Shown here in pieces: positions 28,959 through 60,482 of a stretch of DNA of 64,000 nt (positions are counted from its first letter, which is position 1; every line of letters begins with the position of its first letter). This DNA comes from Lichina pygmaea (Eukaryota; Ascomycota; Lichinomycetes; Lichinales; Lichinaceae): contig OY730169.1 of NCBI GenBank assembly GCA_963422465.1, positions 1,364,001 to 1,428,000 of the forward strand. Direction: 5' to 3'. Below the pieces are notes generated by a model. The model did no database searches. It had not been told where the DNA came from and worked only from the letters and a program-made list of their open reading frames with translations. Position numbers and translations under genes: made by a program.

Positions 28959-29441
28959 TGTTGCGGTCTGTACTGTGCCGTCCTATCCGAGTATAGGATG
29001 AGGGCGAGATGCGGAAGGCGGGTTGGTTCTCGCAGGAGAGGAGTGTCAAGGAGTGCGAAGGGGTTTGGTGGAATATAGTGGTGGTGACACCTGATCAATG
29101 GCTTCGTACAAAGGATTGTATTAAAGTAGATCTAGTTGTCTGGATCACAACATGAGTTGAAGACAATCATTCCATAGAGGAACTATCACCGGACTATATA
29201 GTGCTTGATCAGTGAGCTCAGTGAGCTCTGCTCACTCTGCTCACTTTTCATGCAAGCTGCGGCGAGCTGGGTGAGCTCTGCTCACTCTGCTCACGCATAT
29301 GCATCCTGCGGCGAGCAACCTCTGGTCTGTCTCGCCAGTCATGTGACTGCTTTCTGTGTTATGCCACTTGGTACTTCTGTCCAGTATCCTGTCTGCTGCC
29401 TTCTGTGAGTATAAGAGCTATATTCCTCCTGGGTCGTAACA
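28959..29441. repeat. Gypsy-A left (3') LTR
   Basis: Begins TGTTGCGG and ends GTAACA. The first roughly 250 bases match the Gypsy-B/E LTR; the rest is different and holds repeated GTGAGCTCTGCTCAC palindromes. A + strand TATAAGA (29410-29416) precedes the LTR end. A purine tract (minus-strand GGAGAGGAGG) adjoins at about 29445, as expected for the polypurine tract. Confidence 0.92.
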
Positions 29442-32400
29442 CTATCCTCCTCTCCATCTTTCATCATCCTGATAAAACTTGGTCATGTCTCTGAAGTCAT
29501 GTGCGACTGTTAGCCGAACTCAGCTTACTGCTTAAATCTGTGATCAGGATTTTGTTTTGTGTACACCGTGCAACTTTTGTGTTCTTCGTGGTTGTCTGTG
29601 TTTCTAAATGCCAGGAGAAGACGATAAGTTGAAATGTGCTGTGTGCACTCAGCGTGGAAGGTCTTGTGTCTCTGTGTCCTGGGAGACTCTGAACATGTCC
29701 TGGGACAACCTTCGTGAGGATGTGGCCACTGAAAAGGCAACACGTGACGTACTTTTTAAACAACTTGCAGTGGTGCAGGTTTGTCTGTCTCAGAAGTGAA
29801 AGGTATTGGAGAGCACTGAGGTCTATGTAAGGCAGAAGCTTCAGTGTCTGGTGAAAGAGATGGAGTCGGATAGCGAGGATTTGACTTGATCAGTTATTGA
29901 TATGTCTGTGCTGCAGGCTGAGCTGTTCAGTCCTACCCCTGGTAGAACTGTCGCAGAAGAAGCTGGCAGTTCTCAAGGTTCTTGAGTAGTTCCCAGGTAT
30001 TTTCCAAGTCTGGGTATCCTTTCCACTTAACAAGGTGTTGCTGACTTTTCTTAGCCAGGATTTGTTCAACTTCAAACTTCTGCTCTTCTTCAGGCTGGTA
30101 ATAAAATGTTTTCTGCAAGGGTATGCTCTGGTCGGCTGGTTCAATCATTAAGATATGAAAGTTTGGATAGACTCTGGCATCCCTTGGTAGTTGTATCTTG
30201 ATGTTGACTGGTCCTGTTTTTTCTTCATCCAAAAATAGTCTGACCTTGATGTTGTCAAGTTTCTTTATCTTTGGCTTTTTTGTTTTCCAGTTTTTTGTGA
30301 GGAGGTAGACTTTATCCCTCTTTTTTAGCTGAGGTGCTATTTTTGATTTTTTGTCTATTTGACACTATATTCTCTCCGAGGTCTGTTGAAGGTAGTGCCT
30401 TATTATTGTGTGTGTTTGTTGTAGGAGCTTGTCATGTTGGAGTGCTTTCTTCATGTTTGGTGAAGCTCTGCTTGGCATTCTGATATTTGCATGTTATCCA
30501 AAATTGGCAAAGAATAGTGATTCCTTTATCAAGTCTGATCTGTGCTGGTTGATTGCCAGCTGTGCCACTGGTAATAATTGTACCAAATTGCTGTGGGTCT
30601 GATTGATATAATACTATAAGTAAGTCTCCAGGACTTGGTTTGCTCACTCTGTCTGGCTGTCAGTTTGTGGGTGATAGACTGTAGACATTTTGGGTTTTGT
30701 TCCTATGGCTGCATTGATTGTCTTCCAATAGTTGGATATAAAGAGTTTGTCTCTGTCTGTAATAATTATAATCAGAACTCTGTGGTCTCTGACCAATCTG
30801 TCCAGTAAAAAGTATCCTAATTGTTCTGCTGTGTGGGTCTTCTTGAATAGTACTGTTATTAGGTATTTTATAAATCTGTCCACTATCACCATAATTGAAT
30901 TGTAGGTGATTCCTGTGACTGGGTCTTTGGACTTGGGTAACTTTGTGATGAAGTCTATTGAGACATCTTCCCAAGAGTCTCTTGGTATTGTGTTTGGGTG
31001 TCCTTCTCTGTATAGCTTGTGTTGTCCATGTTTATTTTTCTGGCATGGTAGGCACTTGTTGATGTAGTTTGTGATGTGTTGTCAGAGGTTGATAACATTA
31101 TTCCCTGCCTGTTGGATAAGGTCTGTGGTTTTGGTAATTCCTGGGTGACTATGTGCTGGGTTATTGTGGTAGTTTCTTATTAATTCTTCAGTGTCTTCTG
31201 CTGTGAGCTTGTTGATCTGCGGTTAAGGCACCAGGTTTCCTTGCTAGTTCTGCTGTAGGATTGTTCCTTGGTGTTCATCATCTTCCATATAGTTTTTTTG
31301 TCAGCTTAGTGTGTCTGCTCTCCTATTATCCTGTCTAGGGGTGTATAAGATCTTGAACTTGTGTTGCTCTAGGAGTTCAGCCTATCTGACTTGTCATCTG
31401 TTCAGCTTCTTGGTTGTTGTGAATGTTGTCAGATTCTTGTGGTCTGTGAGGATAGTGAGTTCAGAACTACTTTCCACGTACACTCTCCAATGTTCAAGTG
31501 TATTGACAACTGCCAGTAGCTCTTTATTGTGGATATCATAGTTTTGTTCTGCTTGTGACATTTTGTGAGAGTAGTAGGCAACTGGGTGCCACTTGCTGTC
31601 TACTTGTTGGTATAAGCATACTCCCACTGCTTGGTCTGAAGTGTCTGTTTTGATTCATGTTGGCTGGCCTGTCTTGAAGTTAAGAAGAACTAGTTCCTTG
31701 GCGCAAGTGTCCTTGAGCTGCTAGAATACTTTTTGTTATCTCTCTGTCCACCAGTACTCCACATCCTTCTTTGTGAGTTCTGTCAGTGGTGTTGCTATCT
31801 GTGAGTAGTTCTTGATGAACTGTTGATTGAAGTTAGTAAATTCTAGGAAGACTTGTACTTTCTTAACTGATGTCAGTGTTGGCTATTGCTGAATTGCTTT
31901 CATTTTCTCAGGGTTGATCTTGATCTCTTCAATCCCTATAATATATCTGAGGAATTCAACTTCCAGTTTGTTGAACTTGTATTTCTTTGGGTTGAGCTTG
32001 AGCCCTACCTCTTGTAGACATTGTAGAACATTCTTCACATGTTTGGTATGTTCCTGTTGTGTGTTTGAGTAGACAAGAATATCATCCAGGTAGGTGATAG
32101 CTGTTTGGTCCAGGTGTGCTCTGATAATATTGTTGATCAAGGCTTGACATATTGCTGGTGTGTTTGTAAGTCTGAATAGTATAACCAGATACTTGTAGTG
32201 TCTGTATCAAGTTCTGAAAGCTGTCTTCCATTCTTCTCCTTTTTTCATATGTATCAGGTTGTATACTTCTTTCAAGTCTAGCTTGGTGAAGATTGTAGCT
32301 TGGCTGATCCTGTCTTGCAATTTGTTTATATTTGGTAACAGGTATCAGTTCTTGATGGTAATGTTGTTGAGTTTCCTGTAGTCCACGCAAAGTTGAAAAC

Positions 32401-33800: not shown

Positions 33801-34097
33801 CTAGGTATTGGATTGGGAATAGTGGAGTTTGAAAGCTAGATTAAACTGGTTTAGTCTTTTCAAAGACATAAACCAGTACAAGAACTTCTGTAGTAGCTCT
33901 GGGTTTGAAATAATAGTGGTGAAGTCTTGGGGATTAAAAGAGACTTGTTGTCTTTGTCTTGAATAAAGAGAGCATGAAGAGGTGATATGTTTTGCAGTTT
34001 CTTCTGCTTGGCCACACACACATAGTGGGGTAGGGAAGTCAGGAGCTCCAGCTCTGAAAAGAAAACTTGCCAGACTAATTCTTCCAGTCCTGATTTG
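33801..34097 (-). pseudogene. LINE-2 ORF2, C-terminal part (cut off by Gypsy-B)
   Basis: The last part of ORF2 on the far side of the Gypsy-B insertion: GRIGLASFLFRAGAPDFPTP-like sequence, then the C-terminal zinc-binding motif LCVCGQAEETAKHITSSC and FLYWFMSLKRLNQFNLAFKL before the stop. The same segment is contiguous with its upstream part in the LINE copy at 63251-63860. Confidence 0.85.
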
Positions 34098-34694
34098 TGT
34101 TGCGGTCCGTACCGTACTGTCCTATCCGAGTATAGGATTAGGGCAAGAGGTGGAAGGCGGGTTGGTTCTCGCAGGAGAGGAGTGTCAAGGGGTGCAAAGG
34201 GGTTTGGTGGAACGTGGTGGTGGTGACACCTGATCAATGGCTTCGTACAAAGGATTGTATTGAAGTAGATCTAGTTGTCTGGATCACAACATGAGTTGAA
34301 GACGATCATTCCATAAGGGAACTATCACCAGACTATATAGTGCTGGCCTGTCAAGACGATCAAGATTGTCTCAACAGTCTCGACGTCGAGACGGGTGAGA
34401 TTGTCTCGACAGTCCCACCATGTTATGCACCCTGCGTCAAGACTGGTGAGATTGTCTTGATGCTTCATGCATCATGCGTCGAGACTGGTGAGATTGTCTT
34501 GATGCTTCATGCATCATGCGTCAAGACTGGTGAGATTGTCTTGATGCTTCATGCATCATGTGTCGAGACTCCCGTGTGTCTTGACAGTCACGTGACCCCT
34601 TGTTGGTTGGTCACTTGACTTCCATGGTGTCCTCTTGCCTGGCCCGTGGCCTGATTGCCTATAAATGAGTGGCTCCCATCCCTGGGTTGTAACA
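34098..34694. repeat. Gypsy-B left (3') LTR
   Basis: 597 bp, TGTTGCGG...GTAACA. Contains an array of about 42-base units with inverted GTCGAGAC/GTCTCGAC-type half-sites (about 34350-34580). A + strand TATAAAT (34660-34666) points at the antisense gene that starts 79 bp further on. Confidence 0.93.
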
Positions 34695-34738
34695 CTACCC
34701 TCCTCTCCTTCATTCATCGTCCTGATGAATTCTTGAGT

Positions 34739-35047
34739 ATGTCTGCAAAATCATGTGCCTCTGCTTACCGAAACCAACTGGCAGCCCAGATCTGTGATCA
34801 TAACTTTGTGTCGCTTGCTCCGTGTGACTTCTGTGTTTTGAACTACAAGCCCTGCTTCCGAATGTCTGACGACAACGATAAGTTGAAGTGCGCTGAGTGC
34901 ACTTGTCAGGGAAAGTCCTGTGTGTCACTTTCTTGGGAGTCGCTGAACATGACTCAGGATAACCTTTGTGAGGATTTGGCTGTTGATGAGGCCAAGCGGG
35001 ATGCTCTTGTCAAGCAGCTTGCCGAGCTGCAGGCTTGTGTGTCCTGA
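34739..35047 (+). CDS. Antisense zinc-cluster gene of Gypsy-B (Zn2Cys6-like, 102 aa open)
   Basis: A small frame on the strand opposite to gag-pol, between the 3' LTR and the end of pol. Six cysteines at residues 29, 32, 39, 51, 54 and 61 give C-x2-C-x6-C-x11-C-x2-C-x6-C, exact spacing for a Zn(II)2Cys6 binuclear cluster as in fungal Gal4-type regulators. A charged, heptad-like stretch follows (ETLNM-like WESLNM, then LVKQLAELQA), possibly a dimerization coil. A TATAAAT box inside the LTR lies 79 bp before the ATG with the same polarity. The frame is part of a broken element, and related remnants occur in Gypsy-A and Gypsy-E. Role inferred: DNA-binding regulator of the element or of the host. 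No experimental basis. Confidence 0.6.
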   Translation: MSAKSCASAYRNQLAAQICDHNFVSLAPCDFCVLNYKPCFRMSDDNDKLKCAECTCQGKSCVSLSWESLNMTQDNLCEDLAVDEAKRDALVKQLAELQACVS

Positions 35048-37473
35048 AAGCGAAAGGTTCTTGAGGGTGCTGAGGGTTGAGCAAAGAAAAAGCTCCAGTG
35101 CCTTGTTGCTGAAATGGAGGCGGATGGTGAAGACTTGTCGGCGACAGTCATTGATGCGTCTGCGCTGCAGGCCAAGCTGTTCAGTCCTGCTCCTGCCGGA
35201 ACTGCTGCAGGAGGAGCTGGCAGTTTGCGAGGTTCCTGAGTGGCTCCCAGGTATTTTCCGAGTCTGGGTAGTCTTTCCACTTGACAAAGTATCGCTGACC
35301 TTTTCTCTTCAGGATCTGTTCAGTCTTGAATTCCTGTTCTTCCTCTGGTTGGTAATAAAATGTTTCCTGCAAGGGTGTGCTCTGGTCAGCTAATTTGATC
35401 ATTGAGATGTGAAAGTTTGGGTGTACCTGAGTGTCTCTCAGTAGTCGCAGTCTGACGTTGACTGGTCCAGTTTTTTCTTCGACTGAAAATGGTCCAACCT
35501 TGACATGGTCCAGTTTCTTTGTTCTTGGTTTCTTTGTTTTCCAATTTCTTGTGAGGAGGTAGACTTTATCCCCCTTCTTTAGCTGAGGTGCCATTTTTGA
35601 TTTCTTGTCCATTTGACGTTGCATTCTTTCTGAGGTCTCTTGAAGGTAGTGCCTCATCATCGTGTGTGTTTGTCGTAGGAGCTTGTTGTGTTGGAGTGCT
35701 TTCTCTGCGTTTGGTGAAGCTCTGCTTGGCATCCTGATGTTCGCATGTTGTCCAAAATTGGCAAAAAATAGTGATTCCTTTGTTGAGTCTGATCTGTGCT
35801 GGTTGATTGCCAGCTGTGCCACCGGTAATAACTGTACCCAATTGCTGTGGGTCTTGTTGATGTAATGCTGTAAGTAAGTCTCCAGGACTTGGTTTGCTCA
35901 CTCTGTCTGGCTGTCAGTTTGTGGGTGATAGGCCGTAGACATTTTGGGTTTTGTTCCTATGGCTGCACTGATTGTCTTCCAGTAGTTGGATGTGAAGAGT
36001 TTGTCTCTGTCTGTAATGATCGTGATCAGAACTCCGTGGTCTCTGACCAATCTGTCCAGTAAAAGGTGTCCCAACTGTTCCGCTGTGTGGGTCTCCTTGA
36101 ATAGTACTGTTATTAGATATTTTGTGAATCTGTCCACTATCACCATAATCAAGTTGTAGGTGATTCCTGTGACTGGGTCTTTGGACTTGGGTAGCTTTGT
36201 GATGAAGTCCATTGACACATCTTCCCACAGGCCTTTCGGTATCGTGTTTGGGTGTCCTTCTCCGTATGGCTTATGTCTTCCATGTTTGTTTTTCTGGCAT
36301 AGTAGACACTTGCTGATGTAGTTTGTGACATGTTGTCAGAGGTTAATGACATTGTTCCCTGCCTGTTGGATAAGGTCTGTAGTCTTGGAGATTCCTGGGT
36401 GACTGTGTGCTGGGTTATCATGGTAGTTCCTTATTAGTTCTTCAGTGTCTTCTGCTGTGAGCTTGTTGATCTGTGGTTGAGGCACCAGGTTTCCTTGCTG
36501 GTCCTGCTGTAAGATTGTTCCTTGGTGTTCATCATCTTCCATGTGGTCTTTTCGTCAGCTTAGTGCATCTGCTCTCCTATTGTCTTGTCCAGGGGTGTAC
36601 AAGATCTTGAACTTGTGTTGCCCTAGGAGTTCAGCCCATCTGACTTGCTGTCTGTTCAGCTTCTTGGTTGTCGTGAACATTGTCAGATTCTTGTGGTCTG
36701 TGAGAATGGTGAGTTCAGAACTGCTTTCCGCGTACACTCTCCAGTGTTCAAGTGCGTTGACAACTGCCAGTAGCTCTTTATCGTGGATATCATAGTTTTG
36801 TTCCACTTGTGTCATTTTTCGTGAGTAGTAGGCAACTGGGTGCCACTTGCTGTCTGCCTGTTGGCATAGACATGCTCCCACTGCCTGATCTGAAGTGTCC
36901 ATCTTGATTTGTGTTGGTTGGCCTGTCTTGAAGTTGAGGAGAACTGGTTCCTTGGCGCAAGTGTCCTTGAGCTGTTGGAATGCTTTTTGTTGTCTCTCCG
37001 TCCACCAGTACTCCATGTCCTTCTTCGTGAGTTCTGTCAGTGGTGTTGCCATCTGTGAGTAGTTCTTGATGAACTGTCAGTTGAAGTTGGCAAATCCTAG
37101 GAAGGCTTGTACTTCCCTAACTGATGTCGGTGTTGGCCATTGCTGAATCGCTTTGATTTTCTCAGGGTCAATCTTGATCCCTTCAATCCCTATGATGTAT
37201 CTGAGGAATTCAACTTCCGGTTTGTTGAACTCGCATTTCTTTGGGTTGAGCTTGAGCCCTGCCTCTTGTAGGCATCGTAGAACATCCTTCACATGTTTGG
37301 TATGTTCTTGTTGTGTGTTCGAGTAGACAAGAATGTCGTCCAGGTAGGTGATAGCTGTTTGGTCCAGGTGTGCTCTGATGATGTTGTTGATCAATGCTTG
37401 ACATGTTGCTGGTGTGTTTGTGAGTCCGAATGGCATAACCAGATACTCGTAGTGTCTGTATCAGGTTCTGAAG

Positions 37474-38072
37474 TGTTGCGGTCCGTACCGTACTGTCCTA
37501 TCCGAGTATAGGATTAGGGTGAGAGGTGGAAGGTGGGTTGGTTCTCGCAGGAGAGGAGTGTCAAGGAGCACGAAGAGGTTTGGTGGAACGTGGTGGTGGT
37601 GACACCTGATCAATGGCTTCGTACAAAGGATTGTATTGAAGTAGATCTAGTTGTCTGGATCACAACATGAGTTGAAGACAATCATTCTATAAGGGAACTA
37701 TCACCGGACTATATAGTGCTGGCCTGTCAAGACAATCAAGATTGTCTTGACAGTCTTGACGTCAAGACAGGTGAGATTGTCTTGACAGTCCCACCATGTT
37801 ATGCACCCTGCGTCAAGACTGGTGAGATTGTCTTGATGCTTCATGCATCATGCGTCAAGACTGGTGAGATTGTCTTGATGCTTCATGCATCATGTGTCAA
37901 GACTGGTGAGATTGTCTCGATGCTTCATGTATCATGCGTTGAGACTCCCGTGTGTGTCTCGACAGTCACGTGACCCCTTGTTGGTTGGTCACTTGACTTC
38001 CATGGTGTCCTCTTGCCTGGCCCACGGCCTGATTGCCTATAAATGAGTGGCTCCCATCCCTGGGTCGTAACA
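37474..38072. repeat. Gypsy-E left (3') LTR
   Basis: 599 bp, same architecture as the Gypsy-B LTR. Palindromic array at about 37725-37950, + strand TATAAAT at 38038-38044, antisense ATG at 38117 (79 bp on, as in Gypsy-B). Confidence 0.94.
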
Positions 38073-41000
38073 CTACCCTCCTCTCCTTCATTCATCGTCC
38101 TGATGAATTCTTGAGTATGTCTGCAAAATCATGTGCCTCTGCTTACTGAAACCAACTGGCAGCCCAGATCCGTGATCATAACTTCGTGTCGCTTGCTCTG
38201 TGTGACTTCTGTGTTTTGAACCACAAGCCCTGCTTCCGAATGTCTGACGACAACGATAAGTTGAAGTGCGCTGAGTGCACTCGTCAGGGAAAGTCCTGTG
38301 TGTCACTTTCTTGGGAGTCGCTGAACATGACTTGGGATAACCTTCGCGAGGATTTGGCTGTTGATGAGGCCAAGCAGGATGCTCTTGTCAAGCAGCTTGC
38401 CAAGCTGCAGGCTTGTGTGTCCTGAAAGCGAAAGGTTCTTGAGGGTGCTGAGGGTTGAGCAAAGAAGAAGCTCCAGTGCCTTGTTGCTGAAATGGAGGTG
38501 GATGGTGAAGACTTGTCGGCAACAGTCATTGATGCGTCCGCGCTGCAGGCTGAGCTGTTCAGTCCTGCTCCTGCCGGAACTGCTGCAGGAGGAGCTGGCA
38601 GTTCGCGAGGTTCCTGAGTGGCTCCCAGGTATTTTCCGAGTCTGGGTAGTCTTTCCACTTAACAAGGTATCGCTGACCTTTTCTCTTCAGGATCTGTTCG
38701 GCCTTGAATTCCTGTTCTTCCTCTGGTTGGTAATGAAATGTTTCCTGCAAGGGTGTGCTCTGGTCAGCTAATTCGATCATTGAGATGTGAAAGTTTGGGT
38801 GTACCCGAGCGTCTCTCGGTAGTCGCAGTCTGACGTTGACTGGTCCGGTTTTTTCTTTGACTGAAAATGGTCTGACCTTGACATGGTCCAGTTTCTTTGT
38901 TCTTGGTTTCTTTGTTTTCCAATTTCTTGTGAGGAGGTAGACTTTATCCCCCTTCTTTAGCTGAGGTGCCATTTTTGATTTCTTGTCCATTTGGTGTTGC
39001 ATTCTTTCTGAGGTCTCTTGAAGGTAGTGCCTCATCATCGTGTGCGTTTGTCGTAGGAGCTTGTCATGTTGGAGTGCTTTCTCCGTGTTTGGTGAAGCTC
39101 TGCTTGGCATCCCGATGTTTGCATGTTGTCCAAAATTAGCAAAAAATAGCGATTCCTTTGTTGAGTCTGATCTGTGCTGGTTGATTGCCAGCTGTGCCAC
39201 CGGTAATAACTGTGCCCAATTGCTGTGGGTCTTGTTGATGTAATGCTGTAAGTAAGTCTCCAGGACTTGGTTCGCTCGCTCCGTCTGGCTGTCAGTTTGT
39301 GGGTGATAGGCCGTAGACATTTTGGGTTTTGTTCCCATGGCTGCACTGATTGTCTTCCAGTAGTTGGATGTGAAGAGTTTGTCTCTGTCTGTAATGATCG
39401 TGATCAGAACTCCGTGGTCTCTGACCAATCTGTCCAGTAAAAGGTGTCCCAACTGTTCTGCTGTGTGGGTTTCCTTGAATGGTACCACTATTAGATATTT
39501 TGTGAATCTGTCCACTATCACCATAATCAAGTCGTAGGTGATTCCTGTGACTGGGTCTTTGGACTTGGGTAGCTTTGTGATGAAGTCCATTGACACGTCT
39601 TCCCACGGGCCTTTCGGTATCATGTTCGGGTGTCCTTCTCCGTATGGCTTATGTCTTCCATGTTTGTTTTTCTGGCATAGTAGACACTTGCTGATGTAGT
39701 TTGTGACATGTTGTCGGAGGTTAATGACATTGTTCCCTGCCCGTTGGATAAGGTCTGTGGTCTTGGAGATTCCTGGGTGACCGTGTGCTGGGTTATCATG
39801 GTAGTTCCTTATTAGTTCTTCAGTGTCTTCTGCCGTGAGCTTGTTGATCTGTGGTTGAGGCACCAGGTTTCCTTGCTGGTCCTGCTGTAAGATCGTTCCT
39901 TGGTGTTCATCATCTTCCATGTGGTCTTTTCGTCAGCTTAGTGCGTCTGCTCTCCTATTGTCTTGTCCAGGGGTGTACAAGATCTTGAACTTGTGTTGCC
40001 CTAGGAGTTCAGCCCATCTGACTTGCTGTCTGTTCAGCTTCTTGGTTGTCATGAATGTTGTCAGATTCTTGTGGTCTGTGAGAATGGTGAGTTCAGAACT
40101 GCTTTCCGCGTACACTCTCCAGTGTTCGAGTGCGTTGACGACTGCCAGTAGCTCTTTATCGTGGATATCATAGTTTTGTTCTGCTTGTGTCATTTTTCGT
40201 GAGTAGTAGGCAACTGGGTGCCACTTGCTGTCTGCCTGTTGGCATAGACATGCTCCCACTGCTTGATCTGAAGTGTCTGTCTTGATTCGTGTCGGCTGGC
40301 CTGTCTTGAAGTTGAGGAGAACTGGTTCCTTGGCGCAAGCGTCCTTGAGCTGTTGGAATGCTTTTTGTTGTCTCTCCGTCCACCGGTACTCCACGTTCTT
40401 CTTCATGAGTTCTGTCAGTGGAGTTGCCATCTGTGAGTAGTTCTTGATGAACTGTCAGTTGAAGTTGGCAAATCCCAGGAAGGCTTGTACTTCCTTAACT
40501 GATGTCGGTGTTGGCTATTGCTGAATCACTTTGATTTTCTCAGGGTCAATCTTGATCCCTTCGATCCCTATGATGTATCCGAGGAATTCAACTTCTGGTT
40601 TGTTGAACTCGCATTTCTTCGGGTTGAGCTTGAGCCCTGCCTCTTGTAGGCATCGTAGAACATCCTTCACATGTTTGGTATGTTCTTGTTGCGTGTTCGA
40701 GTAGACAAGAATGTCGTCCAGGTAGGCGATAGCTGTTTGGTCCAGGTGTGCTCTGATGACGTTGTTGATCAATGCTTGACATGTTGCTGGTGTGTTTGTG
40801 AGTCCGAATGGCATAACCAGATACTTGTAGTGTCTGTATCAGGTTCTGAAGGCTGTCTTCCATTCTTCTCCTTCTTTCATGTGTATCAGGTTGTATACTC
40901 CTTTCAAGTCCAGCTTGGTAAAGATTGTAGCTTGGCTGATCCTGTCTCGCAATTCGTTCCTATTTGGCAACGGATATCAGTTCTTGATGGTAATGTCGTT

Positions 41001-43414
41001 GAGTTTCCTGTAGTCCACACAAAGTCGAAGACTTCTGTCTTTCTTTGGTGCAAATAGTATCGGGTATCCTGCTGGCGATTGAGATTCTTGAATGAAACCC
41101 TTTTTCAGGTTTTCCTCCAGGTACTCGCGAAGTACTTGGAGCTCTTTCTCTGATAACTGGTAAATTGGTCCAAATCCTGGCTCCGTCCCTGGTTGCAACT
41201 TGATCTCATGATCCCAAGGTTGGTGCTTAGGCAACGCTGCTGTCGTTGTCTCTTCCTGAAAGAGGTTATCATACCCAGGTCAGTACTCTTCAGGGATCTC
41301 CAGAGGGTTAACAACTTCCTCTCTCTTCATCTCTGACTGTTTGGCCACCTGGTTCCAGGGTGTGCCTGTCAAGGCAGACCTCTTCTTTTGAGAGTCGTCC
41401 TTTCTGTCAGTGAGGTTCCACTGAGGACTTCTTCCCTCATCTGTCCACACCTTCTGCGGCTGGTAACAGGTCCGAGCTGTGTTGTTAGTGCAGTTCCTAA
41501 ACGTGAGTACTCCTGTCTTCCAGTTAACAACTGGGTTGTGCTTCTTTAGCCAAGGCATCCCCAAATAGATATCCTGAGTGGCCAACTCGACAATATCAAG
41601 GTGGATCCTTTCAGCATAGTGTCCGGTAACCATTTCCATTGGCTGCGTCTCATGGCAGACTAGCTCTGTCTGTCCATTTGCCATCACGAGCTGATAGGGC
41701 TGCTGCTTGCGTCTCCTTCCAGTGCCGAGGGTATCGTAAAGTTGTCTTGAAATGTAGTTCCCACTGGCTCCAGAGTCAACAAGTGTGTATGTCTGTATCG
41801 GCGTGTTGGCGTATAGTGACACAGGCAATCGCAGGTGCTTTGCGTTGCTAGGGGTCATGTTGTTGAGCTCCCGATGTCACCCCTTGATAAGGGAGTTCAG
41901 TCTTTTCCTGATCGAAGTGTCTTACCACTGACTGGGCAATGGGTCCAGCCATTCCCATCAGTTCTGAGGAATCTGTTCATGAATTTGTCTTGCTGATGCT
42001 TGTCACATCCAGGCTTGAGGCAGTACTGCCAATTGTCGATGTAGCAGTTGTAGTTGTTGCCTTGCTGTAGGAACATGAGGTGTTCGTGCCAATCATGTGT
42101 GTGCCCGGGGAATGCGGTGTGTTGGCGTTTGTCCCAAAGGTGGATTTCACACGCATCCTTCTCGCAATTGACCCAATGTTTGTGGCAGGTGGCGTGGTAG
42201 GGTGAATGTCCTCCGTACCTTTGTAGTTGTTCGTGGTAGGTGCAGTAGTGCTTCGTGCAAAACCTCCACTGTAGTTCGCCGTGCCGTAGATTTCGTGGGT
42301 CCATGCTGTAAGCATAGCTTCCTTGTGGTATTTCTTCTTTGATAGACACGGGTTTGTCTTGGTCCCCATCAGAGGTGGTTAAGAGCTCCTGTCCCTTGTC
42401 CTGACCTGTTAGTTCTGGTAGGTCCTTGCCTCCTGATGTTGCCAGTTGGTGGGCTACTTCCAATATCTGATCGTAGTTGTCCCATTGTTTGAGGGATAGC
42501 TGAGTCTCTCCTGGTGGGTCCTCTGGCTTGATGACATTCCAGTCTCCGTCGAGCGTATTAAGTTGCTGTCGGTGCACCTTGTTCTTTGAACGACAGTCTT
42601 TCGCCATGTGGCCTAGCTTGCCACAGGCATAGCACTTCAGTGCTTTCCCTTTTTTGTTGTTCCTTCCCTTTGTGAACCTTCCCTTGTGGTGGACTGCATC
42701 CAGTTCCATGGGTGCATAGCCATATGGATCATGTGGCGGTGCCTTGTTAGGCAGCTTGTAGTGGTTGCTCACATGCCATGCGGGGTGGCTGTATCCTCTG
42801 TTGTGGTGTTTCTCCATCGCTCGCTTGAATAGTTTGTCATCAATGTTGATTGCTTGTGCGATGAGTTCGTCCAGTGTGTCGACTGCTTGTCCGTCAAAGG
42901 TGATTTCATCCTTCATGTTTTCCTTAAGTCCATGTCGGTACATGACTATCAGGGTGTCATCGTCCCAGTCAGTCAGTACTGAGTATTGTTTGAACTGCGT
43001 GGTGTACTCTGCGGCTGAGCGTTGTTGTTTGATGTGCTGGATCATTCGTATAGCCACTTTATCTTTGTTAGATGGTCCAAGGATCCTTTTGATCTCATCC
43101 TTGAATCGCGTCCATTTCGTCATCCATTCCGTTGTGCCGTTGTGGTCTCTGTTCCCTGAGAGGTGTTTGTTGACGTAGGGTTTGATCTATCAATAAGCAT
43201 TGCCTCTCATGTAAGTGGTTGCAAAGAGGGGCCACTTTTCCTTAGGCAGCTTTGTCTCTGGTTGGAATTGAAAGTAGACTTGGAGTTGCATGAGCCAGTC
43301 GTCAACCTTGTTTCTTTCACCGTAGAACAGGTCTGGCTTGGCGACACTAATCTTTCCATCTGGGAAGTTGGGGTTGGTTGCTCCTGAGGTACTCATCCTT
43401 GAGGGTCTTCAAAG

Positions 43415-44013
43415 TGTTGCAGTCTGTACTGTACTGTCCTATCCGAGTATAGGATTAGGGTGAGAGGTGGAAGGTGGGTTGGTTCTCGCAGGAGAGGAGT
43501 GTCAAGGAGCGCGAAGAGGTTTGGTGGAACGTGGTGGTGGTGACACCTGATCAATGGCTTCGTACAAAGGATTGTATTGAAGTAGATCTAGTTGTCTGGA
43601 TCACAACATGAGTTGAAGACGATTGTTCCATAAGGGAACTATCGCCAGACTATATAGTGCTGGCCTGTTGAGACAATCAAGATTGTCTCGACAGTCTTGA
43701 CGTCGAGACGGGTGAGATTGTCTTGACGGTCCCACCATGTTATGCACCCTGCGTCAAGACTGGTGAGATTGTCTTGATGCTTCATGCATCATGTGTCGAG
43801 ACTGGTGAGATTGTCTTGATGCTTCATGCATCATGCGTCGAGACTGGTGAGATTGTCTTGATGCTTCATGCATCATGCGTCGAGACTCCTGTGTGTGTCT
43901 CGACAGTCACGTGACCCCTTGTTGGTTGGTCACTTGACTTCCATGGTGTCCTCTTGCCTGGCCCGTGGCCTGATTGCCTATAAATAAGTGGCTCCTATCC
44001 CTGGGTCGTAACA
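43415..44013. repeat. Gypsy-E right (5') LTR
   Basis: 599 bp. The minus-strand TATA (CTATATAG, 43650-43657) fits sense transcription. The sequence TTGAAGAC at 43613-43620 is the inverted complement of GTCTTCAA at 43405-43412, just inside the element. Confidence 0.94.
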
Positions 44014-46581
44014 TGAAGGCTGTCTTCCATTCTTCTCCTTTTTTCATGCGTATCAGGTTGTATGCTCCTTTCAAGTCCAGCTTGGTAAAGATTGTAGCTT
44101 GGCTGATCCTGTCTCGCAATTCGTTCGCATTTGGCAGTGGATATCAATTCTTGATGGTAATGTCATTGAGTTTCCTGTAATCCACACAAAGTTGAAGACT
44201 TCTGTCTTTCTTTGGTGCAAATAGTATCGGGTATCCTGCTGGTGATTGAGATTCTTGAATGAAACCCTTTTTCAGGTTTTCCTCCAGGTACTCACGAAGT
44301 ACTTGGAGCTCTTTCTCTGATAACTGGTAAATTGGTCCAAATCCTGGCTCTGTCCCTGGTTGCAACTTGATCTCATGATCCCAAGGTTGGTGCTTAGGCA
44401 ACACTGCTGTCATTGTCTCTTCCTGAAAGAGGTTATCATACCCAGGTCAGTACTCTTCAGAGATCTCCAGAGGGTTAACAACTTCCTCTCTCTTCATCTC
44501 TGACTGTTTGGCCACCTGGTTCCGGGGTGTGCCTGTCAAGGTGGACCTCTTCTCTTGAGAGTTGTCCTTTCTGTCAGTGAGGTTCCACTGAGGACTCCTT
44601 CCCTCATCTGTCCACGCCTTCTGCGGCTGGTAACAGGTCTGAGCTGTGTTGTTAGTGCAGTTCCTAAACGTGAGTACTCCTGTCTTCCAGTTAACAACTG
44701 GGTTGTGCTTCTTTAGCCAAGGCATCCCCAAATAGATATCCTGAGTGGCCAACTTGACAATATCAAGGTAGATCCTTTCAGCATAGTGTCCGGTAACCAT
44801 TTCCATTGGCTGCGTCTTATGGCAGACTAGCTCTGTCTGTCCATTTGCCATCGCAAGCTGATAGGGCTGCTGCTTGCGTCTCCTTCCAGTGCCAAGGGTG
44901 TTGTAAAGTTGTCTTGAAATGTAGTTTCCACTGGCTCCAGAGTCAACAAGTGCATATGTCCGTACTGGCGTGTTGGCGTGTAGTGACACAGGCAATCGCA
45001 GGTGCTTTGTGTTGCTAGGGGTCATGTTGTTGAGCTCCCGATGTCACCCCTTGACAAGGGAGTTCAGTCTTTTCCCAATTGAAGTGTCTTTCCACTGACT
45101 GGGCAATGGGTCCAGCCATTCCCATCAGTCCTGAGGAATCTGTTCATGAATTTGTCTTGCTGATGCTTGTCACATCCAGGCTTGAGGCAGTACTGCCAAT
45201 TGTTGACGTAGTAGTTGTGGTTGTTGCCTTGCTGTAGGAACATGAGGTGTTCGTGCCAATCATGTGTGTGCCCGGGGAATGCAGTGTGTTGGTGTTTGTC
45301 CCAAAGGTGGATCTCACACACATCCTTCTTGCAATTGACCCAATGCTTGTGGCAGGTGGCGTGGTAGGGTGAATGTCCTCCGTACCTTCGTAGTTGTTCG
45401 TGGTAGGTGTAGTAGTGCTTCGTGCAAAACCTCCACTGTAGTTCGCCGTGCCGTAGATTTCGTGGGTCCATGCTGTAAGCATAGCTTCCTTGTGGTATTT
45501 CTTCTTTGATAGACGTGGGTTTGTCTCAGTCCCCATCAGAGGTGGTTAAGGGCTCCTGTCTCTTGTCCTGACCTGTTAGTTCTGGTAGGTCCTTGCCTCC
45601 TGATGTTGCCAGTTGGTGGGCTGCTTCCAATGTCTGATCGTAGTTGTCCTATTGTTCGAGGGATAGCTGAGCCTCTCCTGGTGGGTTCTCTGGCTCAATG
45701 ACATTCCAGTCTCTGTCGAGCGTATTAAGTTGCTGTCAGTGCACCTTGTTCTTTGAACAACAGTCTTTCGCCATGTGGCCTAGCTTGCCACAGGCATAGC
45801 ACTTCAGTGCTTTCCCTTTTTTGTTGTTCCTTCCCTTTGTGAACCTTCCCTTGTGGTGGACTGCATCCAGTTCCATGGGTGCATAGCCATATGGATCATA
45901 TAGCGGTGCCTTGTTAGGCAGCTTGTAGTGGTTGCTCACATGCCATGCGGGGTGGCTGTATCCTCTGTCGTGGTGTTTCTCCATCACTCACTCGAATAGT
46001 TTGTCATCAATGTTGATTGCTTGTGTGATGAGTTTGTCCAGTGTGTTGACTGCTTGTCCATCGAAGGTGATTTCATCCTTCATGTTTTCCTTGAGTCCAC
46101 ATTGGTACATGACCATCAGGGCGTCATTGTCCTAGTCAGTCAGTACTGAGTATTGTTTGAACTGCGTGGTGTACTCTGCGGCTGAGCGTTGTTGTTTGAT
46201 GTGCTGGATCATTCGTATAGCCACTTTGTCTTTGTTAGATAGTCCAAGGATTCTTTTGATCTTGTCCTTGAATCACATCCATTTTGTCATCCATTCTGTT
46301 ATGCTGTCGTGGTCTCTGTTTCCTGAGAGATGTTTGTTGACGTAGGGTTTGATCCATCAATAAGCATTACCTCTCATGTAAGTGGTTGCAAAGAGGGGCC
46401 ACTTTTCCTTAGGCAGCTTCATCTCTGGTTGGAATTGAAAGTAGACTTGGAGTTGCATGAGCCAGTCATCGACCTTGTTTCTTTCGCCGTAGAACAGGTC
46501 TGGCTTGGTGATGCTAATCTTTCCATCTGGGAAGTTGGGGTTGGTTGCTCCTGAGGTACTCATCCTTGAGGGTCTTCAAAG

Positions 46582-47180
46582 TGTTGCAGTCTGTACTGTA
46601 CTGTCCTATCCGAGTATAGGATTAGGGCGAGAGGTGGAAGGTGGGTTGGTTCTCGCAGGAGAGGAGTGTCAAGGGGTGCGAAGAAGTTTGGTGGAATGTG
46701 GTGGTGGTGACACCTGATCAATGGCTTTGTACAAAGGATTGTATTGAAGTAGATCTAGTTGTCTGGATCACAACATGAGTTGAAGACGATTATTCCATAA
46801 GGGAACTATCACCAGACTATATAGTGCTGGCCTGTCAAGACAATCTTGATTGTCTTGACAGTCTTGACATCAAGACGGGTGAGATTGTCTTGACAGTCCC
46901 ACCATGTTATGCACCCTGCGTCAAGACTGGTGAGATTGTCTCGATGCTTCATGCATCATGTGTCAAGACTGGTGAGATTGTCTTGATGCTTCATGCATCA
47001 TGCGTCGAGACTGGTGAGATTGTCTTGATGCTTCATGCATCATGCGTCAAGACTCCTGTGTGTGTCTCAACAGTCACGTGACCCCTTGTTGGTTGGTCAC
47101 TTGACTTCCATGGTGTCCTCTTGCCTGGCCCGCAGCCTGATTGCCTATAAATAAGTGGCTCCCATCCCTGGGTTGTAACA
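46582..47180. repeat. Gypsy-B right (5') LTR
   Basis: 599 bp, begins TGTTGCAG and ends GTAACA, followed by TSD ATTTG. It pairs with the LTR at 34098. Confidence 0.93.
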
Positions 47181-50131
47181 ATTTGCAGTAGCAGACTTGC
47201 CTCAGCTTTCTGTAACTTTTTGTAGAGCTTCAGATTGTTTTTGTGTGGCTTTTGACAGAAAGTCTGCCAGCCTGGATAGCTTCTTCTTTTCTTCTCTTCC
47301 CATTGGTCTTCCCACTCTTTAGTAAAGAGCTTTTGTAGTTCTTTCTTTGAACTAGCCTGGTTAGTAGTTATTTGACTTAACCAAGTGAATTTCCACTTAG
47401 GAGAGATAGTTGAGGATTCCTTTAAAGGTTTCTTCAAGAGAGAGGCATAGCTGGAAATAGTGGAAAAGATACTGTCAAGAAAGTATTTGAGAGGGGAGTT
47501 TTGAATAGAAGAAAGAAAACAGGCAGTGCGAAATTTAAAGTATAGGTCTAGAGGTAGAAGAAAAAGCTCACTCTCTAATAGAAAAGAAGGAGTGGCTTTG
47601 AAGGCACCCCCAATAAGTCTTAGGCATCTGTTTTGAAATGAAACAAGAGAAGAGATATTGGAGGATTTTCTTAGAGGGTTAAACCAGATCCCCACTGCAT
47701 AGCTCAGTAGAGATCTCAGTATAGCAGTGTACACCAGACATGATGTGTGAACTGGAAAGCCCCAAGTAGAATAGGAAGTTCTAGAAAGAGAAGAGAGTGC
47801 TTTCTGTGCTTTTTGAAGAATAATCCTCTGGTGCTTGTGCTAGTGGAGCTTTGCATCTAGGTACACTCCAAGTACTCGCACTTCTTCTTTTGGTTTGAGA
47901 ATCACATTCCCCAGTCTGAGCTTGAGCTGAAGATTGTCTGATCTTCTTCTGGAAAAATGAAGTATTTCATATTTCTCAGGTGAGAAGACCATTCCATGTC
48001 TTGCAGCCCAGGATAGACATTTGTGGTGTGTGTTCTTTAACTTCAGAAGGTTACTTTTCAAGGAGTGACCAAAAGCAAGCAGATTTGTATCATCTGCAAA
48101 CCCCAGGGCAGATACACCAGAAGAGAGAGTATGCACAGTCTCATGCAATTCAGAAATGTAGAATAGAAAAAGAATAGGGGATAATGGAGAACCTTGAGAA
48201 ACTCCACAATGAATAGGAATAGAATAAGACTCAGAATCATCAAAGACAAGAGTGGTAGAGCGCTTATCACAGAAGGAGTAGATCCAGGAAGCTAGCCAGG
48301 CAGGTATTCCTTTTCTTTTCAGAATTTGCTGTAGTATCTTGGGGAGAACTCTGTCATAGGCTCCTGAGATATCCAGTGAGAGTAGGGATGCAACCATGCC
48401 TTCCTTCCAGACTTTTTCCACTTGGGAGGTTAGAAGGAAAAGTGCTGCTTCTGTGGATCTTCCTTTCCTAAAGCCCATCTGGATATCTGGCAATAGTCCA
48501 GCTTCTTCTGCTATCTTGCTTAGTCTGGCTGCAGCAATAGCTTCCATCAGCTTGCCTGTTGTGTTTAGCAGAGCTATAGGGCGCCAGGCTTTAGCTTGAT
48601 TGTAGGTTCCCTTGCCAGGTTTCCTCAAGCAGACTGTTTTTGCACTCTTAAATCTTTCAGGGAAGTACTCCAGTTTCCAGCATGTTGAAGTCAGAATAGC
48701 TAGAGCTTGGCAGAACCTAGGCCCCAGAGCTCTCAGAAATCCATTTGGCAGCTTATCTCTCCCTCCTGCTGTGAAAGGTTTCTTCTTGGCCAGAATTTGC
48801 TCCACTTCTTCACATGTTACCTCCTGGGAGAGCTGTATCTCAGAGATAGTCTGGGAGCTTTCTGAGCCTGGTTCTGGAACTAGAGCTTTTGGAAAGAACT
48901 GTTGTGAGAAGGCTTTAGTCTTTTCCTCAAAGGTTTTGGCTATTCCTTCTTGTGTTTCCAGGTCAGGAACCAGAGGAAGATCAGGAGTCTTGTTGGCTTT
49001 GGACTTTCCCCACTTTGCAAGCTTCCAGAACTTTGAAGAGCTGGGCAGCTCATGGATTTGGTGTCTGAAAGTGTTCTGTTTTCCATCTCTGACTGCCTTT
49101 TTCTTGAGCTTAGTTGCTTGCTCAAGTTCCTCTTGACTTGCTTGCCTTTTTTGCACTTTTCTTCTTACTCTTCTTTCCTCTTTAACCTTGTTTTGGATCT
49201 CTTGATTCCACCAGGGAACTGAGTGGCCAGATTGCTTCTGGAGCTGTGTGGATTTGCTTGCTATTTCTTGGAGAAAGTTGTCAAGATACTCCAAGTACTC
49301 ATCCACTTCATATTTGTCTTGGAAGTGGAAGGACAGGTGTAGCTTCTCACACTCTACTCTTGCAAGGTTTGAGTCCAGTGTTCTCCAGTTTCTTTCTGGT
49401 TTCCAGATTTTTCTTGGAGGATCCAGGTCCAGGCAGGTTAGTACAGGTCTGTGGTCAGACCCATGAAAGAACTGAAGAGCCACTTTAGAGAAAATCAGAG
49501 AGTTAGAAAAAGAAGAAGAAATAAAAGACAGATCAATAGAAGAACATGGTTTTTCAGAAAGAGATCTTGCTCTGGTAGGGGTGAAAGGTGCAATAGCTAA
49601 ATCCAGATTTAAATCTTTCATTAGGTCTTGAAACTTGTTTGCAGTCTCAGAGTACAGTCTTCTTTTCTTTGACCAGTCTGGGTGGTGAAGATTTGAGTCT
49701 GTGAGAAGAATATGTTGTCCTTGTTCTTGTAAAGCATTTTGGAGTAAACAGAGAAGAGCTTCTGATGCCTCTGTGTAGTTTTCTTGACTTGATGGGGTGA
49801 AGTAGAGATTATGTACCCAAAGAGAAGTAGAAGAGTTTTCCAAGTAGATTTCAAGAGAAACAAAGTCTTTATTCCAGAAGGTAGGATGAAGAGAAGAGAG
49901 TTTCAGATTTTTATTAATAAGAAAAAGTGTTCTGCCAATCTCTGAACAGTAGAGAGGAAGAAAGGAAGAGAAAACAGTTGAAGTGCTTGTTTCTAGGTGA
50001 GGGTTTTTCCAGGGCTCTTGAAGTGCAATAATGTCCACCTCTTGGAGAGCTGAGGTTGCTAGCAGTAGCTCTTGGACTGATTGGCTTTTTTGCACATTAT
50101 ACTGGAGAAGTGTCAGCTTTGTGTCTTTCAT
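47181..50131 (-). pseudogene. LINE-2 ORF2: endonuclease-reverse transcriptase (main part)
   Basis: ORF2 starts at 50131 with its ATG overlapping the ORF1 stop (ATGA). It has an N-terminal APE-type endonuclease (LLQYNVQKS, IIALQEPWKNPH, GSDHRPVLTCLDL), then a reverse transcriptase with RPIALLNTTGKLMEAI, GFRKGRSTEAAL, SLDISGAYDRV, CGVSQGSPLSPILF and the catalytic FADDTNLLAFG, then VRVLGVYLD. After 763 codons there is one in-frame TAG (47840-47842). The same frame stays open beyond it to the Gypsy-B insertion at 47181, with LSYAVGIWFNPLRKSS and a basic C-terminal region. The protein would nick the target DNA and prime reverse transcription there. It is disabled here by the stop codon and by the insertion. 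Confidence 0.9.
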
Positions 50132-51519
50132 GCAGACATCTCAGCATCAAAGATCTTGAAGGAGTTAGCTGGTAGCTTTCCTCCAGAGTTGGCTGATCTT
50201 GAAGAAAGAATTTGCACTTCTGGGAGTGCACCTCTGAGTCTCTCTGAGCTTCTGCTTGGCTCAGCTGTTTTACGTTTTTTCCCCCCTGGTAGAGACTGAG
50301 AGAGAGGGAAAGACATTACTGGGGGGGGTTGTAGAGCTGGAACAGAGGTAGCTGTTGGGATCTCATATTTTCCTGGGCGTGTGTTCCATGCTTCTCTTGC
50401 CTTCTTGGCTGCTTCCTGGCGTACTGGACAGACACTGGCCCAGGCTGGGTGAGCTCCTCTGCAGTTGCAGCATTTTGGCTTGAGAAGCTGTTCAGGAACT
50501 TGGCAGGCTCTCCTTTCATGCTGGCCTCCACAGGCACCACACACAGCTTTGTTCTTGCAGAAGCGTGCTTGGTGCCCATAGCCAAAGCACTTGAAACATT
50601 GTGCAATAACTGTGTCTGCCAGAAAAGGTTCTGCTTCATGCATCCTGTGCCCCAGCACTAGCCCACTCTCAATCAAAAGATTGGCTTGTTCAGGGGTAGC
50701 CAGATCCAGGTGGAGAGAGGTAACTGGCTTCTTTTGAGCTATAGCCTTCTTAGACCAGTAGGCTCTCAGGATGGTGATTTGCTTGCTCAGAGATGGGTTG
50801 CTGTTCTGGATTATCTGGCGGGTTTTCTCCAGGTCTTCAGGTTGGATATCTTCTGTTCTGACTCCATGGATCAGAACTGGAAATCTCTTGGGCTGGATGG
50901 TTGCTTCCTTTGTGAAGATAGCTGATACCCAGGCAGGGTTTTTCTCTAGGAAGACTTTAGTCTCTTGGCTTTCTGTGTTAATAAGGATATCCTCTGAAGG
51001 AAGTTTCCTTACTGCTCTGACCTGCTTGTTGTAGGGGCTGGGTAGTCTGTCTTGAAGAGCCTGGAAAAGCTGGATGTGAGTTCTATTAGCCATGTCAGGT
51101 GGCTGGATACCAGGATGTACAAGAACTTCTTTGAGAATTCTTGCAGGTAGAGGGATTTGTGCTGGAATAGATTTTTGGACAGCCTGGGCATATGATGGCT
51201 TGGCTTCTTGTTTGTCCAGCCGCTTGTTGATATTCTCCAGCTCCTGGAAGATTCTGTTGGTGAGGCCAGTGGAGCTAGACTGGGCTTCTGTAGGGAAGGA
51301 GTTCTTTTTGATATTTTCCCAGCTTTTCAGAATGGATTCTGGGACTGGTTGGGTTTTGATCCAGGAGTCTACTAGTTTGTAGTCACTCTGGGGAGCTGGT
51401 TGGGGGGTAGGAGAGCTGGACTGGGTGCTAGCCAGACTGGGAGCTGGTTGGGAGAGTATAGCTGGTGTAGCTCTGGTGTTACTTTCTGAAAAGGTGGGTT
51501 TTTTCTTCTTGGGAGCCAT
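50128..51519 (-). CDS. LINE-2 ORF1: gag-like RNA-binding protein with CCHC knuckles
   Basis: A 463-residue intact frame from ATG at 51519. The N-terminus is basic, then Ser/Pro/Gln-rich. The middle holds a conserved block (RILKEVLVHPG, QVRAVRKLPSEDILI, FPVLIHGVRTEDI) typical of LINE ORF1 proteins. Three retroviral-type zinc knuckles follow: CFKCFGYGHQARFC, CGACGGQHERRAC and CCNCRGAHPAWASVC. The tail contains a GGKKRKTAEPSR nuclear-localization-like motif. It is expected to bind element RNA in the ribonucleoprotein particle. The ORF1 stop overlaps the ORF2 start by ATGA, suggesting coupled re-initiation. Gypsy-C sits immediately at the start codon (TSD CCATG overlaps it), so the normal 5' leader is cut off. 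Confidence 0.9.
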   Translation of the reverse strand: MAPKKKKPTFSESNTRATPAILSQPAPSLASTQSSSPTPQPAPQSDYKLVDSWIKTQPVPESILKSWENIKKNSFPTEAQSSSTGLTNRIFQELENINKRLDKQEAKPSYAQAVQKSIPAQIPLPARILKEVLVHPGIQPPDMANRTHIQLFQALQDRLPSPYNKQVRAVRKLPSEDILINTESQETKVFLEKNPAWVSAIFTKEATIQPKRFPVLIHGVRTEDIQPEDLEKTRQIIQNSNPSLSKQITILRAYWSKKAIAQKKPVTSLHLDLATPEQANLLIESGLVLGHRMHEAEPFLADTVIAQCFKCFGYGHQARFCKNKAVCGACGGQHERRACQVPEQLLKPKCCNCRGAHPAWASVCPVRQEAAKKAREAWNTRPGKYEIPTATSVPALQPPPVMSFPLSQSLPGGKKRKTAEPSRSSERLRGALPEVQILSSRSANSGGKLPANSFKIFDAEMSA

Positions 51520-51520
51520 G

Positions 51521-51911
51521 TGTTAAAGGCCAGTCCACGTTCACACAGAATGTGGGTGGTCCTGTCTTCGACCGAGGAGGGCAGGGACTCAATAGATGAA
51601 TAGCAAGTGGGGTAACTCTCTTGCTATTGTCACTCGTAATGTGTGTTCAGCCTGGAGAGCTATTCTCTCCAGCTATCTGGGTCCTTATATACAGGAGCCT
51701 GAGGGGGGGGGGTCCTCCCGAGGGGTATCAGCTTTCTGCGTGGACAAGCTGGACAAGCTGGTTACACGTCATCCACCTCGTCCACCGTGGACGAGCTGGA
51801 CAAGCTGGTTACACATCGTCCACCTTGTCCACTGGGTCAGGTGAATATTGTTCTGTGTACCTCTGTACACTCACTTCGGTCAGCTCAGCTGTTCTGGCCT
51901 GGGCCTTAACA
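51521..51911. repeat. Gypsy-C left (3') LTR
   Basis: 391 bp, TGTTAAAGGCC...CCTTAACA, followed by a pyrimidine run (polypurine tract on the minus strand). It contains a GTCCAC/GTGGAC inverted-repeat block at about 51740-51835. Confidence 0.94.
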
Positions 51912-59949: not shown

Positions 59950-60482
59950 TGTTTCAGTCTGTACTGTGCTATCCTATCCAAGTATAGGATAAGGGTAAGA
60001 TACAGAAGGCAGGTTGGTTCTTGTAGGAGAGGAGTGTCAAGAAGTGTGAAGGAGTTTGGTGGAACATAGTGGTGGTGACATCTGATCAATAGCTTCATAC
60101 AAAGGATTGTATTGAAGTAGATCTAGTTGTCTGGATCACAACATAAGTTGAAGACATTTGTTCTATAGAGAAACTATCACTGGACTATATAGTGCTTGAT
60201 CAGTGAGCTGGGTGAGCTCTGCTCACTCTGCTCACTTTTCATGCACACTGCGGTGAGCTGGGTGAGCTCTGCTCACTCTGCTCACTTTTCATACACACTG
60301 CAGCAAGCTGGGTGAGCTCTGCTCACTCTGCTCACACATATACATCCTACAGCAAGCAACCTCTGGTCTGTCTCACCAGTCACATGACTGCTTTCTGTGT
60401 TATGCCACTTGGTACTTCTGTCCAGTATCCTGTCTGCTGCCTTCTGTGAGTATAAGAGCTGTGTTCCTCCTGGGTTGTAACA
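59950..60482. repeat. Gypsy-A right (5') LTR
   Basis: Partner of the LTR at 28959. It has the same GAGCTC repeat module with one more unit, which explains most of the length difference (533 versus 483 bp). It is followed by the matching TSD ATATT. Confidence 0.92.

Follow-up and report, generated by a model that had tools for sequence, protein, structure and literature searches.

Antisense genes between pol and the 3' long terminal repeat (LTR) of Gypsy elements are already known from Boty-like elements and from plants, and subfamilies that differ in the U3 part of the LTR on similar insides are known from crapaud. The role of antisense genes beside the Gypsy 3' LTR is an open question in both plants and fungi. 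We analyzed a 64,000-nucleotide stretch of the Lichina pygmaea genome (assembly GCA_963422465.1, contig OY730169.1, positions 1,364,001 to 1,428,000), referred to here as the window, in which two chromovirus families, the Gypsy-A/B/E family (family 1) and a second one (family 2), carry an antisense gene for a predicted zinc-cluster protein at this place. The gene and the neighboring U3 tandem array were exchanged jointly between near-identical element backbones. This exchange of a gene together with its neighboring promoter repeats suggests that each element has its own gene switch.

In the ascomycete Botrytis cinerea, brtn of the Boty-like elements (Zhao et al. 2011, Virology; as described in passages of PMC7264820, PMC8365987, PMC4227169, and PMC5987419) is likewise antisense and sits between pol and the 3' LTR of a Gypsy element with a chromodomain; its function is given as unknown, and a passage of PMC5987419 describes a similar Monilinia transcript. 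In contrast to the present case, these passages mention no coupling to a U3 cassette; BRTN was compared by description only, and no database match was listed under that name. The antisense open reading frames (ORFs) of plant Gypsy elements (Grande gene23, RIRE2, and Retand TRP28; passages of PMC7264820 and PMC11963269) share the place and the strand, have family-specific tandem repeats nearby, and have a proposed regulatory role; the Retand proteins are predicted to bind DNA, and regulation has been suggested. However, the plant proteins have the TRP28 domain rather than a zinc cluster, and the passages describe no exchange of gene plus U3. The TRP28 domain (PF04195) had no Pfam match at an E-value up to 1 in 8 family-2 and 13 family-1 members. 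The crapaud LTR elements of Podospora show U3 subfamilies on a conserved R/U5 with largely homologous internal regions, and recombination at strand transfer was proposed for them (passages of PMC10787394); unlike here, the sections on crapaud contain no linked regulator gene, and the word "antisense" is absent from the text of that paper. Human T-cell leukemia virus 1 (HTLV-1), with HBZ, and HIV-1 also have a 3'-end antisense gene driven from the 3' LTR, and HBZ acts on sense transcription, but these are animal retroviruses with unrelated proteins, and the HBZ promoter is TATA-less (passages of PMC10186651). The open-access literature, judged by titles, abstract starts, and passages, yielded no zinc-cluster antisense gene of an LTR element, and the text of a 2011 fungal LTR survey (PMC3248453) contains neither "antisense" nor "zinc." As far as this literature shows, the zinc-cluster identity, the evidence for selection, and the finding that regulator and U3 array are exchanged together all appear new.

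Four subfamilies were compared: 1B (Gypsy-B and Gypsy-E), 1A (Gypsy-A), 2a (the window's second-family element), and 2b. The genes, LTRs, and pol frame concerned are located in the window as follows.

34739 to 35047, plus strand: antisense zinc-cluster frame of Gypsy-B, from the ATG at 34739 to the TGA at 35045-35047 that ends the frame in this copy
34739 to 35239, plus strand: whole antisense gene of Gypsy-B, 166 codons when intact, with its natural end at 35237-35239
34097 to 34694, minus strand: 3' LTR of Gypsy-B; the outer part is common to 1A, and the inner part (U3) is type-specific
35181 to 35897, minus strand: C-terminal frame of the Gypsy-B pol, assigned to the integrase C-terminus and chromodomain from its similarity to the Gypsy-E copy (Pfam on 38559-39932)
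37471 to 38072, minus strand: LTR of Gypsy-E, with its U3 array at 37801-37946
38117 to 38617, plus strand: antisense gene of Gypsy-E, with internal stops
28959 to 29441, minus strand: LTR of Gypsy-A (1A); its U3 array at 29214-29316 is of another type, with a 50-bp unit
29485 to 29898, plus strand: remnant of a 1A-type antisense gene in Gypsy-A, interrupted by internal stops
51964 to 52494, plus strand: antisense gene of the second family (2a), intact; 176 amino acids from 51964 and 157 from the ATG at 52021
51521 to 51911, minus strand: 3' LTR of the second family (2a), with a U3 array of a 47-bp unit at 51739-51832

The first-pass annotation, made from the sequence of the window, had described an antisense six-cysteine frame at 34739, and this frame is real: it has the spacing C-x2-C-x6-C-x11-C-x2-C-x6-C as given, begins with an ATG, and lies between pol and the 3' LTR of a minus-strand chromovirus. 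The interval 34739 to 35047 is the frame as truncated in the Gypsy-B copy, because a further in-frame TGA (35078-35080) and the natural end follow downstream. The gene and pol overlap tail to tail, with the gene end lying within the 3' end of pol (the pol frame ends at 35181). The remnants that had been noted in Gypsy-A and Gypsy-E are recognizable (frames from 29485 and at 38117-38617, both with internal stops). The second family has the matching antisense arrangement, with the frame at 51964-52494 on the plus strand overlapping the pol 3' end (the pol frame ends at 52412). The description of the two families as having unrelated LTRs and quite different pol was also borne out: the self-comparison of the window gave no match of at least 150 bp between their LTRs, and the main alignments of four pieces of pol showed 33-52% amino-acid identity. 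Pfam searches on window frames spread over both families found the chromovirus domains, namely a gag knuckle, reverse transcriptase, RNase H, integrase, and chromodomain; family 1 gave zf-CCHC and Integrase_H2C2, family 2 gave RVT_1 and RNase H, and both gave Chromo.

Located between pol and the 3' LTR, the antisense frame is conserved and coding, and it is a real gene. Hundreds of candidate copies are present in the genome (8 contigs, 32.5 Mb, fungal in content). We used the 30 closest copies for 1B (150 scored among 497 candidates) and for 2a (150 among 278), the best 6 for 1A (150 among 511), and 12 of 20 fetched loci for 2b, the other 8 being dropped because no start pattern was found. Closest-match sampling is biased towards little-decayed copies; in these samples the frame is intact in 9/30 1B, 4/6 1A, 29/30 2a, and 11/12 2b copies, and the six cysteines are kept in 75 of 78 (29/30, 6/6, 28/30, and 12/12, respectively). 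The intact proteins are 166 amino acids long in 1B and 1A, and 157 and 169 in 2a and 2b. The ratio of nonsynonymous to synonymous changes (dN/dS, Nei-Gojobori) was 0.18-0.26 between 2a and 2b (median 0.216; 60 pairs, 5 of the 30 2a by 12 2b copies), 0.13-0.17 between 1A and 1B (12 pairs, 4 by 3 copies), and 0.14-0.19 between four 1B copies and the window's Gypsy-A remnant. Third positions hold 66-71 of the 119-130 differences in nine singly listed 2a by 2b pairs. The other reading frames gave 0.76-2.74, except frame -1 (0.25-0.37), which is not open, the three intact copies that were counted having 2, 4, and 6 stops in it; since it holds stops, its low value is read as a shadow of the shared wobble position. 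A six-frame scan of the window for C-x2-C-x6-C-x5-12-C-x2-C-x6-8-C gave three matches, all on the plus strand (34823, 38201, and 52045), and 30 block-shuffled windows gave none. A chance ORF is ruled out by purifying selection, with dN/dS of 0.13-0.26 in two independent comparisons. The earlier statement to this effect is strongly supported, both by the selection and by the intact copies.

It had also been proposed to check whether the antisense gene co-diverges with pol. Within both families this co-divergence fails: the gene and U3 were swapped as a unit between nearly identical backbones. Between 1A and 1B (20 pairs, 4 by 5 copies), the median identity was 96% in the outer LTR, 70% in the gene, and 94% in pol, and the median transversion fractions were 0.005, 0.127, and 0.006. 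Between 2a and 2b (30 pairs, 5 by 6 copies), the identities were 91%, 72%, and 98%, and the transversion fractions were 0.042 (range 0-0.048), 0.155, and 0.000. In the stretch of the LTR that runs from the sense TATA-like site to the tip, windows of 1A and 1B are 53-65% identical. In this stretch of the 2a and 2b LTRs, identity was 44% and 66% in the two windows, and no BLAST match was obtained over 51751-51887; the outer LTR and most of pol of the window's 2a element are about 96% identical to 2b pieces. Faster protein evolution in place of exchange was ruled out, because synonymous differences are raised in the gene too: 0.53-0.55 against 0.11-0.17 in pol in five pairs of the copy L040 with 2b, with five L048 pairs left out since the longest-frame rule took a non-corresponding piece of pol. 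This difference at synonymous sites is the reason for reading the pattern as exchange.

With the loci chosen by gene, the gene type equaled the U3 signature in 76 of 78 copies (6/6 1A, 30/30 1B, 30/30 2a, and 10/12 2b), and the two remaining 2b copies had neither signature. A pol tree built from 36 copies requires two changes of the A/B labels, which are forced by the starred branches, with the bootstrap not fully settled. One 1B-type copy, L021, groups among the 1A pol sequences on this tree. Across U3 and the gene it matches three 1B copies at 88-98% and three 1A copies at 54-77%, whereas in the stretch 580-779 bases past the ATG L021 is nearer to 1A (0.89-0.97) than to 1B (0.81-0.90); beyond 779 bases the two types are indistinguishable. 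Judged by its sequence, L021 is a direct recombinant. On the 2a/2b pol tree (30 2a and 11 of the 12 2b rows), the labels need 6 changes, of which the starred branches force 1. The 2b rows L064, L066, L073, and L075 have an antisense frame without an internal stop and lie on a very long pol-tree branch, as if the region past the gene had been rearranged or inserted into and were not the same pol. The 2a/2b pol tree alone was rejected as evidence for repeated exchange, with only 1 forced change and 4 of the 11 2b rows on the long branch.

Proteins of the Zn2Cys6 (GAL4) type have the spacing C-x2-C-x6-C-x5-12-C-x2-C-x6-8-C, and a middle homology region is usual in such factors. Structure models of both families, in which the metal was not modeled, show a short helix for each cysteine pair and then a long helix of 63-71 residues (coiled coil); in the sequence, a short acidic-hydrophobic tail follows the coil. 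Foldseek matches were weak and mostly Zn2Cys6 proteins. Those of family 2 were mostly DNA-binding proteins, and 10 of its 11 rows were by reading Zn2Cys6 proteins (Pho7, Leu3, HAP1, and CBF3), every E-value being at least 0.1. Profile searches of the PDB gave weak matches only (E 0.5-10), with LEU3, CYP1, and GAL4 among unrelated chains, and a single-sequence PDB search with the family-2 frame gave no match at E up to 1. The curated cut-off of Pfam PF00172 was not reached by members of either family; at E up to 1 it matched 4 of the 8 members of family 2, the best at E 0.017 (the one member shown had 14.9 bits against 21), and 2 of the 13 members of family 1, the best at E 0.24. No bZIP family was among the Pfam matches of the same 8 and 13 members at E up to 1. 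Sequence, selection, and models together support a small predicted protein in which a Zn2Cys6-like cluster is followed by a coiled coil and the short tail. As modeled, it resembles GAL4, HAP1, Leu3, and Pho7 in the six-cysteine spacing, the helix for each cysteine pair, and the linker and coiled coil, but it is short, encoded by a retrotransposon, below the Pfam cut-off, and without the middle homology region.

The U3 region next to the gene contains the following features in the 1B LTR.

34425 to 34570, no strand assigned: U3 tandem array, 42-bp unit in 3.5 copies, with dyads (TCGAGAC-N10-GTCTCGA in copy L018)
34333 to 34340, minus strand: putative sense TATA-like site CTATATAG, in the conserved outer LTR and adjoining the border with the variable U3
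34660 to 34666, plus strand: candidate TATA box in antisense orientation, TATAAAT, some 35 bp inward from the LTR tip

Tandem repeats occur in all four U3 types examined, with units of 42 bp in 1B, 50 bp in 1A, 47 bp in the window's 2a, and 35 bp in 2b; the 2a copy L048 has a 68-bp unit. The dyads go beyond most shuffles in three of the four types: the best single-unit dyad was reached by 26, 9, and 2 of 1000 dinucleotide shuffles in 1B, 2a, and 2b, and by 199 in 1A. A CGAG half-site common to all U3 types is only suggestive, as its observed count was reached in 15, 13, and 2 (1B), 69 (1A), 69, 2, and 26 (2a), and 0, 0, and 1 (2b) of 300 shuffles. By eye, an antisense TATA-like site lies 31-35 bp inside the LTR tip in 29/30 1B and 6/6 1A copies and is kept despite diverged flanking sequence; none was seen by eye in family 2. 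The 1B array lies between the sense and antisense TATA-like sites, as in a putative divergent promoter. The dyads could alternatively be RNA hairpins for packaging or strand transfer, with the protein acting in the particle or on RNA as a nucleocapsid or packaging helper. The U3 repeats would be near the 3' end of the genomic RNA and the dyads could putatively fold as RNA, but family 1 already has a gag with a CCHC knuckle, antisense coding would require separate expression, and the family-2 fold matches are mostly DNA-binding proteins; we consider this role very improbable.

Our preferred reading, to which we give a probability of about 0.6, is that the protein controls its own LTR through U3 and that the gene and U3 array travel as one cassette. 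An antisense promoter within the U3 of the 3' LTR would drive the gene, and the protein would dimerize via its coiled coil. The dimer would bind the tandem repeats in the U3 of its own element and set LTR transcription, activation or anti-silencing being the likeliest mode. Dimerization, binding to the own U3, transcriptional control, and its direction are steps that we infer. Regulator gene and U3 array would form a contiguous specificity cassette. Its exchange onto other backbones as a unit is shown by the sequences, and the route would be template switching at R and near the pol end during reverse transcription. Strand transfer at R is obligate, and both switches in one round would yield mosaics such as L021. 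A similar idea, of U3-only recombination at strand transfer, has been proposed (passages of PMC10787394).

The same cassette evidence would also fit a repressor that limits transposition of its own kind (copy-number control), with exchange letting elements escape as in heteroimmune phages, and many copies, part of them with an intact frame, are present in one genome. However, the short acidic-hydrophobic tail after the coil is more like an activation tail; we regard a repressor as unlikely, and activation or anti-silencing as more likely than repression.

The decay of the 2a gene copies bears on anti-silencing. The 30 copies show 315 minority changes, 258 of them C>T or G>A; CpG sites account for 251 of the 305 transitions (131 C/T before G and 120 G/A after C). 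Repeat-induced point mutation (RIP) has a CpA bias, and the pattern suggests CpG methylation over RIP-type decay. The protein may be an anti-silencing factor like VANC of the Arabidopsis VANDAL elements, which are DNA transposons. VANC binds short repeated non-coding motifs and strips silencing marks, and its motifs and proteins co-diversify (passages of PMC5735166). Fast-diverging tandem arrays beside a fast-diverging protein fit this pattern of an element-encoded, sequence-specific protein with diverging tandem-repeat targets, binding being putative in the present case, and the CpG transitions are expected under CpG methylation. VANC belongs, however, to a different protein family and to a plant. 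This alternative overlaps with control of the LTR through U3, and as a separate explanation we hold it to be doubtful.

There is an even chance that LTR retrotransposons can carry a self-contained cassette of an antisense DNA-binding regulator and its cognate U3 operator array that is swapped among near-identical backbones, much like the immunity regions of lambdoid phages. If true, recombination would make new regulatory identities, and copies would split into separate cross-regulation groups. The cassette would also give a reason for U3-only subfamilies such as those of crapaud. The role of antisense genes beside the Gypsy 3' LTR is now directly testable with small proteins and short DNA, because the protein has an architecture like that of DNA-binding proteins, its natural variants come with differing U3 arrays, and L021 is a natural recombinant.

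The recurrence in two families had been taken to mean that the gene is an ancient or repeatedly useful component. Common descent of the two families' genes is likely, because place, strand, tail-to-tail overlap with pol, coil, and C-terminus are alike; the proteins are also similar in length, share an invariant W behind the cluster, and have a similar SSQG or SSQS at the C-terminus. BLASTP aligned a family-1 with a family-2 protein over nearly the full length (24% identity, E 6e-4 in a single comparison), and none of 5000 full shuffles reached the real mean score of the family-1 profile on family-2 proteins (68 of 5000 in the reverse direction). The rival explanation is that different host zinc-cluster genes were captured independently. 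It is favored by the weak profile-profile comparison (hhalign probability 10%, E 0.003) and by the large share of the similarity that the cysteine frame accounts for: when the cysteines were kept in place, the real mean score was reached by 28 and 364 of 5000 shuffles. Against it stand the shared features above and the scarcity of full shuffles reaching the real score, and independent capture seems unlikely. The near end-to-end alignment agrees with an ancient gene, but with a weak profile-profile signal that is in large part the cysteine frame, this age is probable rather than proven.

Protein database searches listed or counted 15 proteins at E up to 0.001, 64 at E up to 10, and 146 at E up to 1; the search giving 146 used a mixed alignment and is not independent evidence of homology between the families. 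Several relatives (P0019, P0020, P0022, P0028, P0033, and others) are about 57-66% identical to family 1. The P0019 group is probably from outside this genome, because P0019 as a query had no match above 66% among 150 scored of 509 candidates. The only homologue from a named organism among the matches listed, P0071, is a partial protein from a metagenome-assembled genome of Watsoniomyces obsoletus (Lichinomycetes). In viral_contigs, no homologous loci were found with the family-1 or family-2 alignment (58 and 79 pattern stretches, 0 confirmed).

Over the window as a whole, the GC content is 0.54-0.68 on the left side and drops near 28000 to 0.40-0.52 on the right side, which is rich in repeats. 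A ladder of direct repeats extends over 34097-47180, in which 34097-37473 equals 37473-40851 (96%) and 40847-44013 equals 44014-47180 (95.5%), with LTRs present again at the joints, as if elements had recombined head to tail. Long minus-strand frames at 47033-51522 are by eye like a long interspersed nuclear element (zinc-knuckle ORF1; ORF2 with endonuclease and reverse transcriptase). More copies of the family-1 gag region and LTR, one of them inverted, are located at 61347-63248 and 58335-60196.
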